Positions 21,001 to 27,051 of a DNA stretch of 64,000 nucleotides are shown here, in pieces. The first letter of the stretch is position 1; every line of letters starts with the position of its first letter. The notes below the pieces were generated by a model. It was given only the letters and a program-made list of their open reading frames with translations, was not told where the DNA came from and did no database searches. Origin of the DNA: an uncultured Lacinutrix sp. (GTDB lineage Bacteria; Bacteroidota; Bacteroidia; Flavobacteriales; Flavobacteriaceae); NCBI RefSeq assembly GCF_947500325.1, contig NZ_CANMRQ010000016.1, positions 1 to 64,000 on the forward strand, in the 5' to 3' direction. The position numbers were made by a program, and so were the translations under genes.

Positions 21001-21810
21001 TTACTTTATCTTATTAGATAATTCTTTTGCTTCTTCATACTTATAATTATTTTTATCTTGTAAAATAATATTTAATTGCTCTATCGCTTTTTCTTTATCT
21101 TCTATTTTTAAATAGACTAATAATTTATACCAATAACCTTTAGAGCTAGAAAGTTTTTTAGTAGCAATTAATTTATCAAATACTTCTATTGCTTTTTCTG
21201 TGAACCCAAGTTCTATATATATATGGCCAATTTTAATTAAGCTATAGTTGTTATAGTTATTAGTGTTGTTGGCTTCGTAAAGCTTTATTAAACTATTGTA
21301 ATCTTTAGAAGTATATAATTCTTCTATTTTTTGAGATTCATTTTGCGACCCTTTTTCTATTAAAGAAGGTATGGTATCCCAATTTTGATAGTCGTTATAA
21401 TAATCGTTTAGAGAATTAGTATTAAAAATAAAAGGTAAACCAATAGCTAGGAATAATATAATTGTAGCTGCTATACCTAATTTATAAAAAATTGAATTAG
21501 ATTTTTTTTTGTTTTTATTACAATATAGGCTTTCTACGCTTTTAATGTTTTTAGAAATATCTTGATATTCTTTAGTCTTAAAACGGTTTTTAATGGATTT
21601 AAAATCTTCAATATTACTATTCTTATCTAGAGTGTGCCAATCATTTTCATTAAAAGACTCTTGTAAAGCTTTATAGATGAGTAACTCTTCTTTTAATGCT
21701 TGATCTGTATTTATTTGCTTTTCAAAAACTGCTTTCTGTTCTAATGATAGGGAGCCATTTAAATAGCCATCTATCATTTTTTGCATGTTGTCGTTGTGGT
21801 TAGAGTTCAT
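21001..21810 (-). CDS. Membrane-bound putative anti-sigma factor with extracytoplasmic TPRs
   Basis: A 269-residue protein starting directly at the stop of the sigma gene. Residues 1-60 form a short helical region (MIDGYLNGSLSLEQKAVFEKQINTDQALKEEL, cited in part) of the type found at the N-terminus of Bacteroidetes anti-sigma factors. One transmembrane helix spans about 109-129. The outer part (about 150-269) has TPR-like helix pairs (GHIYIELGFTEKAIEVFDKL). It would bind the sigma factor inside and sense a signal outside. The role is inferred from position and topology; there is no zinc HxxxCxxC motif. Confidence 0.7.
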   Translation of the reverse strand: MNSNHNDNMQKMIDGYLNGSLSLEQKAVFEKQINTDQALKEELLIYKALQESFNENDWHTLDKNSNIEDFKSIKNRFKTKEYQDISKNIKSVESLYCNKNKKKSNSIFYKLGIAATIILFLAIGLPFIFNTNSLNDYYNDYQNWDTIPSLIEKGSQNESQKIEELYTSKDYNSLIKLYEANNTNNYNNYSLIKIGHIYIELGFTEKAIEVFDKLIATKKLSSSKGYWYKLLVYLKIEDKEKAIEQLNIILQDKNNYKYEEAKELSNKIK

Positions 21811-22365
21811 CTATGCTAATGTTTTATAACGGGTATCCGCCTTTATTAATTGTACAATTTTGGCTCTACACTTAAAAACGCGTTGTCTCACTACATTAAT
21901 AGAATTGTATGCTAGGTCAGTCATAATATCTTCATAACTCATACCATTAAAATAGTTACTTAATATTTCCTTACAATTATCAGATAATAACTGGAATTTT
22001 TCTTGGTAAAATTCTAAATGTTTTTGTTCTAAAGTAAAGTTCGCCAAATGATCTTCTTTTTCTACTAGTGGCAAAACTCCATCTTTCATTACCCATTCTT
22101 TTTTGTTTTTTATTGTACTTCTCCAGATATTTTTACAAATAGTAAACAAATAACCTTCAAAAGAGGCAAGAACTAAGTTTTTTTCTTTGTGCTTAGCTAT
22201 TAAATACATAAGCGCATCATGAAACACGTCTTTAGCATCGTCTTCTTTTCCATTATTACGCATAATAAAAGAATTAATCTTAGGGAAGAATTTGTTATAT
22301 ATTTCTAGTATTGTCTTATTGTTTCCTTTAATAAGAGCTTGTAAATACTTTTCACTTTCTTGCAT
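21811..22365 (-). CDS. ECF-type RNA polymerase sigma factor
   Basis: A 184-residue sigma-70-family factor of the extracytoplasmic-function group. I start at ATG 22365 (MQESEKYLQAL). Region 2 covers about 10-80 (KEDDAKDVFHDALMYLIAK, FEGYLFTICKNIWRSTIKNKK) and region 4 about 115-175 (LLSDNCKEILSNYFNGMSYEDI and a helix-turn-helix with NSINVVRQRVFKCRAKI). Regions 1.1 and 3 are absent. Its stop abuts the anti-sigma-like gene. I propose that it reads the three GGGTAATG promoters of the divergent genes. Its own start has no such motif; a housekeeping TATTTTTG lies about 21 bases upstream of the ATG. Confidence 0.9.
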   Translation of the reverse strand: MQESEKYLQALIKGNNKTILEIYNKFFPKINSFIMRNNGKEDDAKDVFHDALMYLIAKHKEKNLVLASFEGYLFTICKNIWRSTIKNKKEWVMKDGVLPLVEKEDHLANFTLEQKHLEFYQEKFQLLSDNCKEILSNYFNGMSYEDIMTDLAYNSINVVRQRVFKCRAKIVQLIKADTRYKTLA

Positions 22366-22451
22366 AGTTAATAACGTATGTCTCAAAAATAAATTAAAAT
22401 AATTTAATTAGTAACTAATGTTTTAATATAATTAACAAATATATATTGTAA

Positions 22452-22482
22452 TAAAAAAGCTACCATAATTTAAGGTAGCTTT
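22452..22482 (-). terminator. Terminator of the small leader-peptide gene
   Basis: On the minus strand AAAGCTACC pairs with GGTAGCTTT around a 9-nt loop, followed by T6. It lies 24 bases after the stop at 22506 and before the sigma gene, so the small gene is a separate transcription unit. Confidence 0.8.
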
Positions 22483-22505: not shown

Positions 22506-22630
22506 CTAATCAAGATCGTCGTCATCTAAATCATTGTCAATGGATCCTTTTTTATGACACCAATAATCATTTTTGTGTTTTCAATTTTAAAAGATTCAAA
22601 TTGTTCTAGTTGTGATGTTAAGTCTTTCAT
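22506..22630 (-). pseudogene. Frameshifted small leader-type peptide gene with acidic tail
   Basis: From ATG 22628-22630 the frame reads MKDLTSQLEQFESFKIENTK then MIIGVIKK, a leader like those of Bacteroidetes natural-product precursors, and stops after 34 codons (22526). Adding one base to the run of six A near 22547-22552 restores a 41-residue peptide ending KKGSIDNDLDDDDLD with a stop at 22506. It has its own terminator. The acidic tail nearly repeats residues 127-140 of the neighbouring subtilase. The break may be a real mutation, a homopolymer sequencing error, or recoding. Type is set to pseudogene because the frame as given is broken. Confidence 0.5.
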
Positions 22631-22882: not shown

Positions 22883-24220
22883 ATGAAAAAAGTATTTTTC
22901 CTTATTGTGTGTAGTTTATTAGTTTTATCTTCTTGTTCCAGAGATGAATTGTATGAAGAGAATAGTGACGAGATTGCTAATAACGTAGAATCTAGTTTTA
23001 ATAAAGCTAATGTTAGAAATAACGTGAGAAATAATAAGCCTATATATTCTAGAAAAGAAATTATTATTCAGTATGAAAAAAGTGCAACAGACATTCAAAA
23101 AAATGCCTTTAGAAGTGCTCATGGTATTTATAATAGTAGTTATGGTAACAATAATGCGTTTACAATATTAGGGACCTATATACCTTGTGATCTATGTCCA
23201 GGTAGAACAATAGAAAAATGGACTTATTACCCAAACTCTAATATTAATATAGAGCATAAATTAGGTTCTATTAAAGATGATTTAGATGATGATGATTTAG
23301 ACGGCGTAGTTTTAAATGTTGATCTTGAATTTGTTATTAATACAGATGCCTTGTCTAACACCTTTAGTGCAAATACTAATACCAGTTATTATTCAAATAT
23401 AAAGTCTTCAAACTCTGGAGTTACTGTAGGTGTTTTCGATACAGGATTAAATGCTAATTTCCCAGATTTTTCTGGAACTTCATTTATGTATAATGCAACA
23501 GTAGAATCAGACCATATTTATGGTGTTAATTCTGGTTGGAACTTTGTAGAAAATAACCATAATACTTTTGATGATAATTTAGATGCTCATGGTTCTATTG
23601 TAACCTCTATAATAGTTAGAAAGCTAAATGCTTTAAATATCCCTTTTCAAATTATGCCATTAAAAGTTGCAGATAGTTATGGTCAGGTATCTTACTTTAA
23701 ATTGGTATGTGCTCTTAATTATGGTTTACCAAGAATGGATATCGCTAATTTAAGTATAGGATGGAGTGAAGATTTAACAGTAGAATTAAGTAACTCTATT
23801 TTATCATATATAATAGCAGCAAATCCAAATACTTTAATTGTTGCTTCCGCAGGTAATAGTTATAATACAATAAATGATAATGATATTAACAATCATATTC
23901 CTTCTGGTTTACCATTCTCAAATATATTGTCTATAGGTTCTTCTAATTCTTCTAATCAGCTATCATATTTTTCTAATAAAGGCGCTACTACTGTAGATTT
24001 TTTAGCTCGTGGAGAAAACATTCCTTTTCAATACATTCCAATGACTGCCGTACCAGTATCTGGTACTTCTTTTTCTACACCATATGTTGCAGCTATAGCT
24101 TCAAAAATATTATATGAAAGTAATATGACCGCTACACCTAGTAATATTTTAGATGCTTTAATTGCTTCTGGAGTTGATTATCCTTATCCTATAATAAAAC
24201 ATCAGAAAATAATTAATTAA
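22883..24220 (+). CDS. S8-family (subtilisin-like) serine protease, lipoprotein
   Basis: A 445-residue subtilase anchored by a lipobox (LVLSSC, Cys18). Residues 40-125 form an I9-like prodomain region; an acidic GSIKDDLDDDDLDG segment spans 128-141; the catalytic domain covers about 178-430. The triad is complete: Asp186 (GVFDTG), His236 (DAHGSIV), Ser396 (SGTSFSTP), with oxyanion Asn325 (SAGN). It would act in the periplasm or on the cell surface. The gene follows promoter P1 and is followed by the CHAT protease gene. The acidic segment is nearly repeated in the tail of the small peptide gene upstream, hinting at recognition, inhibition or processing of that peptide. Confidence 0.92.
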   Translation: MKKVFFLIVCSLLVLSSCSRDELYEENSDEIANNVESSFNKANVRNNVRNNKPIYSRKEIIIQYEKSATDIQKNAFRSAHGIYNSSYGNNNAFTILGTYIPCDLCPGRTIEKWTYYPNSNINIEHKLGSIKDDLDDDDLDGVVLNVDLEFVINTDALSNTFSANTNTSYYSNIKSSNSGVTVGVFDTGLNANFPDFSGTSFMYNATVESDHIYGVNSGWNFVENNHNTFDDNLDAHGSIVTSIIVRKLNALNIPFQIMPLKVADSYGQVSYFKLVCALNYGLPRMDIANLSIGWSEDLTVELSNSILSYIIAANPNTLIVASAGNSYNTINDNDINNHIPSGLPFSNILSIGSSNSSNQLSYFSNKGATTVDFLARGENIPFQYIPMTAVPVSGTSFSTPYVAAIASKILYESNMTATPSNILDALIASGVDYPYPIIKHQKIIN

Positions 24221-24245
24221 TTAATTAATTAATTAATTTCTGATG
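24200..24245 (+). repeat. Hairpin with seven AATT repeats at the subtilase 3' end
   Basis: CATCAGAAA (24200-24208) pairs with TTTCTGATG (24237-24245); between them lie seven tandem AATT units (24211-24238) that are themselves self-complementary. The subtilase stop codon is inside the repeat. There is no T run after it, so it is more likely an RNA-stability or attenuation element than a full terminator. Confidence 0.55.
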
Positions 24246-24297: not shown

Positions 24298-27051
24298 ATG
24301 AGATGTAATTTAAAACGCTTTTTTGTCTACGTATCGTTACTGTTGCCTGTTTTGTCCTTGGCTCAAAATGAGGAGTACATAAAGAAAAATGTGAATGCTA
24401 TATATAAAAACAAAACAAAAGATGTAAAACAGAGAATTAATGCATTAAATAGTTTATTAAATACTCTAGATACTAAAAATATTAATGAAGGTCACGCTCT
24501 TATTTATCATAAAATAGGAGCGCTTTATTTTAAAAATAAAAACTACATATTAGCTATAGAAAGTACTAATAAAGCATTGTCTATTCGTGAGTCTTTAAAC
24601 CCACAAAATTTCCATAATATAAATCATTCCCTTTATAATTTATCTAGGCTTTATAAGAAAACAGGAAACTGGTCTAAACGCTTTAAAGTATTAAAAGCTA
24701 TTGAGGTAAATAGGATTGAAGATAATAAGTATTATAAAGCGCTAAATGCTTTAGGAGAAATCTATGGAGAAAAACACGATTATTATAAAGCTTTACAGTA
24801 TTTTGAAGAAGTTATTATAGCGTTAGATATAAATGATGAAAATATTGATATAGCGACTTTATTAGATGCTCATGTACAATCTATTTGGGTATATAGTATA
24901 CAGAAAAAAAATATAGATTTAACTAGATTAAATAGTCATATAACTAATATAGATTTAATATTAAATATAAAACCTAAGTTAAGAAAAAAAGTAAAAGGCT
25001 TAGACAATAATCTAGCTGTAATATATCAGTCTTTGGGTTTATATGATAAAGTAATAGCTCTTTATAAGAAAGCTCTTATTAATTCGAAAAAAGAAAAAGA
25101 TTCTATTAGTTCAGGTATTCTATTATATAATTTAGGCGCTTTATATTCAAAAATGAATAAAAAAGGAGAAGGTGAGAAATATTTTAATGAATCTTTAAGA
25201 GCAACCAATAATATAAAAAACACTGCTGATGTCTATGATAATTTAGGATATTACTCCGATAATATCGTAGAAAAAATATCTTTTTTTGAGAAAGCGTTAC
25301 ATGTTATTACTCATAAAAATATTGCTTTGGAAGGGGAATTTGTACTTCCTACACTAAGTGAAATTAAAAACACTGAATATAAGTCTGACATATTACAATA
25401 TTTAACAGATCTGGCTAGTGCTTTAGTTTTAAATTATGAGCAAACTAAAAATTTAGATAATTTAAAACGAGCAAAAAAAACATTAATTCTAATAGATGAA
25501 TTGGTTTCAATAATACGTAATGACAGTTCTAACGAGAATTCTAAGTTGTTTTGGATTAGCAAAGGTGTAAACTCATATATATTAGCCGTTAAAGTATGTC
25601 ACCTTTTAAATGACCCAGAAAGTGCATTTTATTTTATGGAAAAAAATAAAGCACTTTTATTACTAGAAAACATAAAACGAACGCAAGATAATATCAAGCT
25701 AAATATACCAGACAGCTTGTTAATAAAAGAAAACAGTTTACGGAATGCAGTTTCTGAAATTAAGCGCTTGTATAATGATAATCTAGAAGATAAGACTATA
25801 AAAAATGATTATGTTAAAAGAAAAAAAGAATATGATAATTTTTTAATAACTATAAAAGAAACGTACCCTAAATTTTTTAATACAAGTAAGGAGATAGAGA
25901 TTTTAAATTTAAAAGAAGCTATAAATAAAAATGTTACTAAAGACACTAATTTTGTTGAGTATATATTAAATGATCAAGAAGGTTATGGTATTTTTTGTAG
26001 TCAAGGAAAGCGTCCAATTCTATTTGAAATAGAAGATGTACCAGCGCTAATAAATAATCTATACAAAATTAAAAAACAATTAAGTAAACCCTTTGAATTA
26101 GAAGAAGACTTTTCAAACTATAGAAAAAATTCCTATTCTATATTTAAAAAAATATTTCCATTTAATAATGCTAAAGCATTAATGGCTAACAAGAAATTGT
26201 CTGTAATACCAGATTATAAACTGCATAACTTACCATTTGAAGCTTTAGTAGATAATGATACATTAATTAATGATTATTTAATTAATAACGTTGAGGTTTC
26301 ATATTATCAATCTGCATCTGTATACAATCAAATAGAAAAACAAGAACAAACAACAAAACATCAATTTGTTGGTTATGCACCTATATATTTTAATACATTC
26401 TCTTTACCTAGTTTATTAAAAAGTGAAGGCGATATGAATGCCATATCTAAGTTGTTTTCTTCTCCTAATGTATTATTTAAGGAAAAGGCTTCTAAAAAAG
26501 GCTTTATGTCTAATTTAAATAAGTTTAAGATTATACATATTAATTCTCATGCTGAAGTAGATGAGAATAATGAGCCATGGATAGCTTTTGCAGAAGAGAA
26601 ACTTAAATTAGAAGAGTTATATGGTCTTAATAATCAAGCCGATTTAGTGGTTTTGGATGCTTGTAAAACAGATATAGGAAGTATAGAAAGAGGAGAAGGA
26701 GTCATGAGTTTGTCTAGAGGGTTTTTCTATAGTGGTACTAAAAGTATCATTGCTTCTCAATGGAATGTAAACGAGCAGTCCAATAATAAAATATTACAAG
26801 CATTTTATAAGAATATTAAATTAGGTCAAACAAAATCTAATGCCTTACATAATGCTAAATTAGACTATTTAAAAAATCATCAATTAGAGCTTAGTTCTCC
26901 TTATTATTGGGCCTCTTTAACACTTATGGGTAATTCTGAAGCTATAGAAATAACATCAAACACTTCAATTTGGGTAATCTCTTTGGTAATTATTTTTGGT
27001 TTAATTTTTCTCTTTTTAATTTTAAAAAAGAGAAAAACCTTTTCTCAATAA
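24298..27051 (+). CDS. Exported TPR-CHAT cysteine protease with C-terminal membrane anchor
   Basis: A 917-residue protein (ATG at 24298; the longer frame uses TTG). Signal peptide (about 1-23, ending SLAQN), then TPR repeats (about 45-465, e.g. IGALYFKNKNYILAIESTNKAL, cited in part), a coiled linker (470-530), and a CHAT (caspase-like) domain (about 550-880). The dyad is present: His751 in HINSHAEVDENNEPW and Cys789 in VVLDACKTDIG. A transmembrane helix (891-910) and basic tail close it. CHAT proteases cut specific partners, often recognised by the TPRs. Export to the periplasm with a C-terminal anchor sets it apart from cytosolic defence-type TPR-CHAT proteins. It shares promoter P1 with the subtilase. 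Confidence 0.9.
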   Translation: MRCNLKRFFVYVSLLLPVLSLAQNEEYIKKNVNAIYKNKTKDVKQRINALNSLLNTLDTKNINEGHALIYHKIGALYFKNKNYILAIESTNKALSIRESLNPQNFHNINHSLYNLSRLYKKTGNWSKRFKVLKAIEVNRIEDNKYYKALNALGEIYGEKHDYYKALQYFEEVIIALDINDENIDIATLLDAHVQSIWVYSIQKKNIDLTRLNSHITNIDLILNIKPKLRKKVKGLDNNLAVIYQSLGLYDKVIALYKKALINSKKEKDSISSGILLYNLGALYSKMNKKGEGEKYFNESLRATNNIKNTADVYDNLGYYSDNIVEKISFFEKALHVITHKNIALEGEFVLPTLSEIKNTEYKSDILQYLTDLASALVLNYEQTKNLDNLKRAKKTLILIDELVSIIRNDSSNENSKLFWISKGVNSYILAVKVCHLLNDPESAFYFMEKNKALLLLENIKRTQDNIKLNIPDSLLIKENSLRNAVSEIKRLYNDNLEDKTIKNDYVKRKKEYDNFLITIKETYPKFFNTSKEIEILNLKEAINKNVTKDTNFVEYILNDQEGYGIFCSQGKRPILFEIEDVPALINNLYKIKKQLSKPFELEEDFSNYRKNSYSIFKKIFPFNNAKALMANKKLSVIPDYKLHNLPFEALVDNDTLINDYLINNVEVSYYQSASVYNQIEKQEQTTKHQFVGYAPIYFNTFSLPSLLKSEGDMNAISKLFSSPNVLFKEKASKKGFMSNLNKFKIIHINSHAEVDENNEPWIAFAEEKLKLEELYGLNNQADLVVLDACKTDIGSIERGEGVMSLSRGFFYSGTKSIIASQWNVNEQSNNKILQAFYKNIKLGQTKSNALHNAKLDYLKNHQLELSSPYYWASLTLMGNSEAIEITSNTSIWVISLVIIFGLIFLFLILKKRKTFSQ

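Follow-up and report, generated by a model that had tools for sequence, protein, structure and literature searches.

Small exported peptides that go with strain types are known from the peptide pherotype systems ComC/CSP, Agr and RRNPP, ComC having a double-glycine leader. DegS is triggered by a C-terminal peptide, and stand-alone propeptide-like inhibitors of subtilisins are known as inhibitor family I9. According to passages of PMC10028731, the TPR-CHAT protease Csx29 of CASP (Craspase) cleaves the sigma inhibitor Csx30, and the DegS-RseA-sigmaE proteolytic cascade is named in the same source. Passages of PMC12881547 concern fungal allorecognition and cell death, where the S8 protease HET-Q2 occurs with the gasdermin HET-Q1 and a TPR-CHAT protease with a gasdermin. 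Here we describe a bacterial locus in which proteases of both families adjoin genes for a sigma factor and its probable inhibitor, and in which a small gene copies a segment of the S8 prodomain. The locus lies in the window, by which we mean the whole stretch of 64,000 nucleotides analysed, and its module comprises four genes:

21001..21810, minus strand: membrane protein with a TPR-like C-terminus (weak TPR-type NCBIfam matches; no Pfam match)
21811..22386, minus strand: ECF-type sigma factor (NCBIfam TIGR02985 1.4e-11 and sigma70-ECF 7.5e-10, both under the cut-off; no Pfam match)
22883..24220, plus strand: S8 (subtilase) protease with a lipoprotein-like N-terminus and an I9-like prodomain (Pfam PF00082 1.5e-25; AlphaFold2 pLDDT 88.6)
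24301..27051, plus strand: TPR-CHAT caspase-like protease with an N-terminal hydrophobic segment and a C-terminal membrane helix (Pfam CHAT PF12770 2.7e-49, TPR matches; AlphaFold2 pLDDT 86.3)

As in the passages on CASP/Craspase (PMC10028731), a TPR-CHAT protease is tied here to a sigma factor and a probable inhibitor, and Foldseek with the window CHAT returned chain 8eey_B of the Csx29 complex as its top match (8e-15). The window protein differs in having export and membrane-anchor segments and an S8 partner whose prodomain is copied by peptides. In a check of size alone, no open reading frame of more than 920 residues was found between 15 and 30 kb of the window or at three paralogue loci, and as Cas7-11 is presumably larger than this, nothing of Cas7-11 size is present there. 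With DegS-RseA-sigmaE the module has in common envelope proteases, a probable membrane anti-sigma factor, an ECF sigma factor and, as we propose, a peptide trigger, but its proteases belong to other families, TPR stands in place of PDZ, the recognition segments are variable and dedicated genes encode copies of them. The resemblance to pherotype systems lies in the small exported-type peptide, the double-glycine leader as in ComC and the existence of strain types; here, however, the peptide copies a protease prodomain segment and some copies are lipoprotein-like. Like the I9 inhibitors, the copies are separate genes resembling an S8 propeptide, yet each consists of 13-17 prodomain residues and not of an I9 fold. 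S8 and TPR-CHAT proteases also meet in the fungal cell-death and self/non-self systems, which differ in being eukaryotic and gasdermin-based; the passages of PMC12881547 drawn on here do not mention peptide copies.

The window genome encodes four S8 paralogues, each accompanied by an ECF sigma factor, a membrane TPR protein and a TPR-CHAT protease, and the window sigma factor is 38-47% identical to its three paralogues. With a profile built from these four S8 proteins, 37 of 397 family genomes gave matches at 1e-30, the window genome counted in; hits from G114, G261, G415 and G124 (G, genomes; L, loci) were counted without flanking DNA. At 1e-60 the profile matched 11 of 11 genomes of a Kordia-type genus, inferred to include Kordia sp. 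TARA_039, and at 1e-70 it matched 11 of 166 genomes in the genus of Tenacibaculum sp. MAR_2009_124. Among 12 genomes of the window's own genus no match was better than 5e-5. S8, CHAT and sigma genes are co-located at 87 of 93 loci, 85 of these 87 also having the TPR membrane protein. The catalytic residues are kept in 87/87 modules for S8 (D186/H236/S396) and in 85/87 for CHAT (His/Cys). CHAT has a hydrophobic N-terminus in 84/87 and a hydrophobic C-terminus in 83/87 modules, the anti-sigma-like protein has a hydrophobic segment in 84/85 relatives, and a Cys occurs within S8 residues 11-50 in 86/87. These features point to a lipoprotein in the case of S8 and, for CHAT and the TPR protein, to an orientation towards the periplasm. 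Adjacency to the sigma gene makes the TPR protein a probable anti-sigma factor. Conservation is much stronger in the sigma gene than in either protease: compared with L092 or L101, the window sigma factor is 84-85% identical, versus 37% for S8 and 43-46% for CHAT. PADLOC returned weak generic matches on the module (subtilase 5.6e-8, IetS 7e-4, TPR 2e-4) and none for the sigma factor or the anti-sigma-like protein.

A short tandem run of TTAA units lies at and after the S8 stop codon of the window (24209-24237). L079 and L227 each have two tandem S8-CHAT pairs with one sigma gene per stretch. An additional gene, encoding some 680-1210 residues, separates sigma and S8 in L039 (9588-11960), L079, L082, L086, L088, L095, L234, L237, L243 and L260, the 10 loci having been picked for inspection by their long gap; the one such protein examined, that of L039, has a type IX secretion tail.

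About 250 bases from the S8 gene, on the opposite strand, lies the small gene whose tail copies the S8 prodomain (mimic gene):

22526..22630, minus strand: mimic peptide gene, a frame-0 open reading frame of 34 codons with a double-glycine-type leader, then out of frame
22506..22556, minus strand: mimic tail HKKGSIDNDLDDDDLD with its stop codon, in the -1 frame, a copy of the S8 prodomain segment
22548..22553, minus strand: A6 run, forming with the next G the slippery heptamer A_AAA_AAG in frame 0, without a stimulatory fold (z 0.84)
22456..22482, minus strand: intrinsic-terminator hairpin followed by a T run, 3' of the mimic gene (-11.9 kcal/mol, z -4.09)
23255..23302, plus strand: the copied segment, termed here the word, S8 residues 125-140 (prodomain helix alpha-2 plus acidic loop)

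A preliminary description of this DNA had claimed a frameshifted leader-peptide gene with a protease-like tail, and such a gene is indeed present. Translation of minus-strand 22526-22630 in frame 0 gives MKDLTSQLEQFESFKIENTKMIIGVIKKDPLTMI and a stop, and the -1 frame, open over 22506-22580 of the minus strand, gives KHKNDYWCHKKGSIDNDLDDDDLD and a stop. The tail HKKGSIDNDLDDDDLD is identical to S8 residues 125-140, HKLGSIKDDLDDDDLD, at 13/16 residues and 36/48 nucleotides; the copied stretch is therefore real but longer than the residues 128-140 originally given. The synonymous differences reported earlier were seen again, 6 of the 13 shared residues being encoded by other codons, and the 12/48 nucleotides that differ rule out that the tail was copied from its protease very recently. 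The gene also has the terminator of its own that had been claimed; a consensus terminator scan missed this hairpin, its loop limit being 8 and the hairpin loop 9 bases. We compared the ends of short six-frame open reading frames from 44 loci with S8 segments by Smith-Waterman alignment, and the score of 69 for the window tail with its own S8 was equalled by no non-own comparison (1,501,335 comparisons, own included). Chance likeness is ruled out by this score, by 0/200,000 permutations and by the control windows given below.

The site of the frame change had been placed in the A6 run, and this is not compelled by the relatives. Gly-Gly stands directly before the tail in 10/10 intact leader-type copies, and the resemblance of the window tail to S8 starts one residue (His) ahead of the A6 run; the frame change therefore probably lies upstream of A6, at the leader-tail junction, where the window copy is interrupted. 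It is scarcely credible that the gene is intact and is decoded by programmed -1 frameshifting at A_AAA_AAG, a sequence we liken to the dnaX slippery heptamer. The heptamer is correctly framed and a slip there enters the tail frame, but the stimulatory fold is absent, the product would lack the Gly-Gly of the intact leader-type copies, intact relatives require no shift, and the copies of L233 and L252 are plainly broken too. The window gene is a broken, decayed member of its peptide class.

In the AlphaFold2 model of S8 the prodomain consists of two helices and a four-stranded sheet and is I9-like (strands 54-64, 97-101, 110-115 and 143-153; helices 70-79 and 123-134), although no Pfam I9 match was obtained for the window S8 at 0.001. 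Foldseek with S8 retrieved subtilases, some of them with their prodomain (8pol, 3whi, 3afg). The word corresponds to helix alpha-2 (123-134) and the acidic loop ahead of the last strand (143-153), and is thus inside the prodomain, not between prodomain and catalytic domain as first described. It is a variable prodomain segment of 13-17 residues across modules, and the copies are confined to it; they do not span the whole prodomain-like I9 fold. Judged by eye pair by pair, the copy ends exactly ahead of an S8 Gly in 11/17 cases (window, L038, L095, L149, L150, L233, L237, L241, both L243 copies and L257) and not cleanly there in L092, L101, L235, L236, L252 and L256; the S8 residue after the segment is Gly in just 52/87 aligned rows of this gappy region. 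The C-terminal residue of the copies is Glu in 14/17 and Asp in 1/17.

Altogether 17 copies were found in 16 of the 93 loci (96 S8 genes), and the same kind of tail occurs on two export-type N-termini. Twelve copies have a double-glycine leader (L038, L092, L095, L101, L233, L235, L236, L237, L241, two in L243, and the window), two of them broken by an early stop in L233 and by the frame change in the window. Five are carried by a small lipoprotein-like protein (L149, L150, L256, L257 and L252), of which that of L252 is broken by a frame change and that of L257 has a doubtful start. The copy gene is thus dispensable, since three of 17 copies are broken and others have decayed or diverged (L246, L292). 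Intact peptides with protease-like tails beside homologous proteases, proposed earlier as a check on the idea, therefore exist; relatives with the protease and no such peptide, which had been named as evidence against it, are nevertheless the majority, as no copy was found in 77/93 loci, some of which are cut by contig ends so that the count of copies is a lower bound. The main scans did not require a leader, and in one of them, from which 14 duplicate loci were dropped, a score of at least 35 gave 12 true copies and 2 unrelated open reading frames among 15,067. L043-L048 were outside the scans, as were, in one set of 78 loci, those from L172 on save L174 and L186 (mostly generic S8 proteins). 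The copies of the window, L233, L252, L256 and L257 came from separate scans, and one supplementary scan was limited to 1.5 kb around the module. For L250 and L244, to which the automatic rule gave no segment, segments were assigned by hand. With other parts of S8 as bait, a score of at least 35 was reached by 12 hits in 94 segment windows versus 2 in 891 other windows; the 12 exclude the window copy, the tail of which is not in the frame of the start codon.

Profile searches returned few further members. A profile of four copies matched those four strongly among 37 genomes, the next best having an E-value of 0.003, and in the 11 genomes of the Kordia-type genus a leader-type profile recovered the copies already known and added a single divergent one, L292. 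The L149 lipoprotein is full length in the two known genomes alone of 166, with weak matches in 12 more, and the L256 lipoprotein is confined to G451 and G598 apart from two weak matches.

The leader of the window gene resembles that of another peptide in the same genome (0/500 shuffles equal), which lies beside a C39-peptidase ABC exporter (PF03412 1.6e-38); the exporter is located in trans, outside the module. A likeness to natural-product leaders had been claimed, and of this the double-glycine type stands, whereas no curated precursor family was matched: the read-through window peptide has no NCBIfam match above the cut-off, and NCBIfam and Pfam gave none above cut-off for 8 of the 17 copies and two orphan peptides. 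Assignment to a named natural-product precursor or bacteriocin family is ruled out on these grounds, and the peptides appear, from the eight copies tested, to form a class without a name in either database. Other double-glycine peptides, from the window genome and one from G386, have tails that match no S8 well (best score 33). Intact homologues with tails unrelated to the protease, the second kind of evidence that had been expected to speak against a mimic, were not seen beside the module; the peptides of the window genome that share the leader but have tails unlike S8 lie elsewhere.

Several further peptide genes came to light in this connection. In the window genome a lantibiotic-type cluster (L041, 8097-15570; G000:C2:494000-510000) contains a double-glycine peptide, a C39 ABC exporter, HlyD and a split LanB-type dehydratase. 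The same MLE/MLD-type double-glycine leader is found on orphan peptides at L040 8038-8157, L316 1806-1913, L317 1707-1811 and L318 1641-1796; their tails fit no S8 well, and that of L318 (PRKKAIE) is faintly like S8 segments of the IEPKK type.

We then asked whose word the copies carry. Over 11 modules the pairing of copies with their own S8 scores 517, versus at most 503 in permutations (0/200,000 reach the own pairing). By the within-clade comparison, this excess reflects clades: the copies track the S8 clade. Inside the clade, 1/13 copies fits its own S8 best and another clade S8 fits better in 12/13, where, with about 10 clade mates each, losing to one is the expectation under no preference; L038, L101, L257 and the window are outside this count for want of a clade mate. 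On average 35% of the clade S8s fit worse than the own one, and 0/17 copies are identical to the own S8 segment. The copies thus give no sign of a preference for their own S8. It is unlikely, on this evidence, that the peptide serves self-regulation as an inhibitor, decoy or substrate of its own cell's protease that mimics the own prodomain segment. Such a role would agree with the position of the copy next to its own protease, with the resemblance at clade level and with the own S8 being the best of 81 for the window, L101 and L237 (the window and L101 without a clade mate), but it sits poorly with the 12/13 copies that another clade S8 fits better and with four copies that match a foreign S8 exactly. 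Of the original notion of a self-mimic, the double-glycine leader gene copying an S8 segment is borne out and the tuning to the own protease is not.

The four exact matches to the S8 segment of another genome form two reciprocal pairs, to which exact reciprocity is limited. One pair, L149 and L150, comes from Tenacibaculum sp. MAR_2009_124 and another Tenacibaculum, an uncultured isolate, and matches both ways over 15 residues; the other, from Kordia-type genomes, consists of L241 and one of the copies in L243, which has two, and matches over 13. The L038 copy matches the L228 S8 at 12/13. The four exact cross pairs together show 30 synonymous differences and 0 nonsynonymous ones, for which a random-site model gives 5e-21, a value that is overstated, since S8 segments may owe their conservation to other causes. 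The pS of the cross pairs is 0.51-1.03, half to all synonymous sites being different. Swapped exact copies in two genome pairs suggest a way to tell strains apart. General avoidance of self was not seen in the Kordia-type clade, where own differences (3, 4, 4, 4, 5, 5 and 5 of 13) are about those of random S8 pairs. Between the mimic genes of L149 and L150 the N-terminal part has a pS of 0.07, the tail 0.93 and the neighbouring genes 0.38-0.63. The final 27 CHAT codons are likewise similar (0.17), so a tract that the two genomes shared recently seems to stop at the tail; the tail itself looks to have been exchanged as a unit, like a cassette.

This exchange bears on two further explanations. 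The small gene might store an alternative segment that recombines with the S8 gene, the peptide itself being inactive; cassette-like tails on the nearly identical gene bodies of L149 and L150 and the words swapped between copy and S8 are in line with this, yet the cross-pair pS is unlike recent DNA exchange, and a silent store would have no use for the leaders and lipobox-like signals that are kept, and we regard such storage as very unlikely. Alternatively, a strain might be immune to a rival's protease that acts between cells because it carries the word from the prodomain of that protease, while its own prodomain guards against its own protease. Propeptides inhibit their proteases, and immunity of this kind would account for the reciprocal pairs and the exchange of tails. 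It is still quite unlikely, as helix alpha-2 and the loop are copied alone, without the last strand or the stretch that would fill the active site, and no part for intercellular delivery was noticed in S8, for which no dedicated search was made.

On the basis of these results, we tentatively propose, with a confidence that falls a little short of even, that the locus holds a decayed gene of a kind that encodes a recognition word, which is exported and acts on the protease cascades of other types. The exported copy would stand in, outside the cytoplasm, for the S8 prodomain segment of another type and engage the normal reader of that segment, which would be either S8 or, through its TPR domain, TPR-CHAT. 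The engaged reader would switch the S8/TPR-CHAT pair in neighbouring cells of a different type and, on the model of Csx29-Csx30 and DegS-RseA, cleavage of the anti-sigma-like protein would relay the signal to the sigma factor. Leader-type copies may be exported through a C39 exporter like the one elsewhere in the window genome. A tail that stops ahead of the S8 Gly, in some cases on a putatively lipidated protein, could mimic a lipid-anchored prodomain freed by a predicted cut at that position. The net effect would be a peptide-based means of acting on, or sensing, non-identical kin. A more specific version, possible though more doubtful, is a non-self code resembling mating types, in which a strain exports the word of its counterpart type's protease and so acts on the counterpart S8/TPR-CHAT/sigma cascade, the words staying constant as protein while codons turn over and cassettes are exchanged.

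As to the reader of the word, our guess is the TPR domain, with S8 itself as the alternative. The AlphaFold2 model of CHAT shows an N-terminal TPR solenoid, the CHAT domain and the C-terminal membrane helix. Between L149 and L150 the pN of CHAT is 0.42 in the first 200 codons versus 0.03 to 0.24 downstream; by this measure the TPR part is the fastest-changing region of the protein. TPR-word covariation over 11 modules is weakly positive, the best partial p being 0.0035 among 17 regions, uncorrected, and in 111 pairs the correlation of word and TPR is 0.52 (partial 0.28); it is null when modules are permuted within clades (109 pairs, rho 0.15, p 0.90). TPR proteins bind EEVD-type acidic C-terminal ends, and the acidic C-terminus of the copies might be read in a similar manner. 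As a separate observation, the CHAT proteins of L233 and L235 differ by 9% in the catalytic part and 58% in the TPR part, which looks like replacement of the latter.

Among the literature matches listed, in which subscription journals are thinly covered, no title or abstract opening describes the module or the copies. Small open reading frames of this kind readily escape annotation, and here they reveal an envelope module, not found in the searched literature, in which two protease families are combined with an ECF sigma factor. If the proposal is true, peptide signalling would be linked to TPR-CHAT and S8 proteases, which have been described in CRISPR defence and in allorecognition of fungi. 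If the reciprocal matches reflect function, they would represent a strain-recognition code in bacteria that can be read from sequence, with protease prodomains supplying the words.
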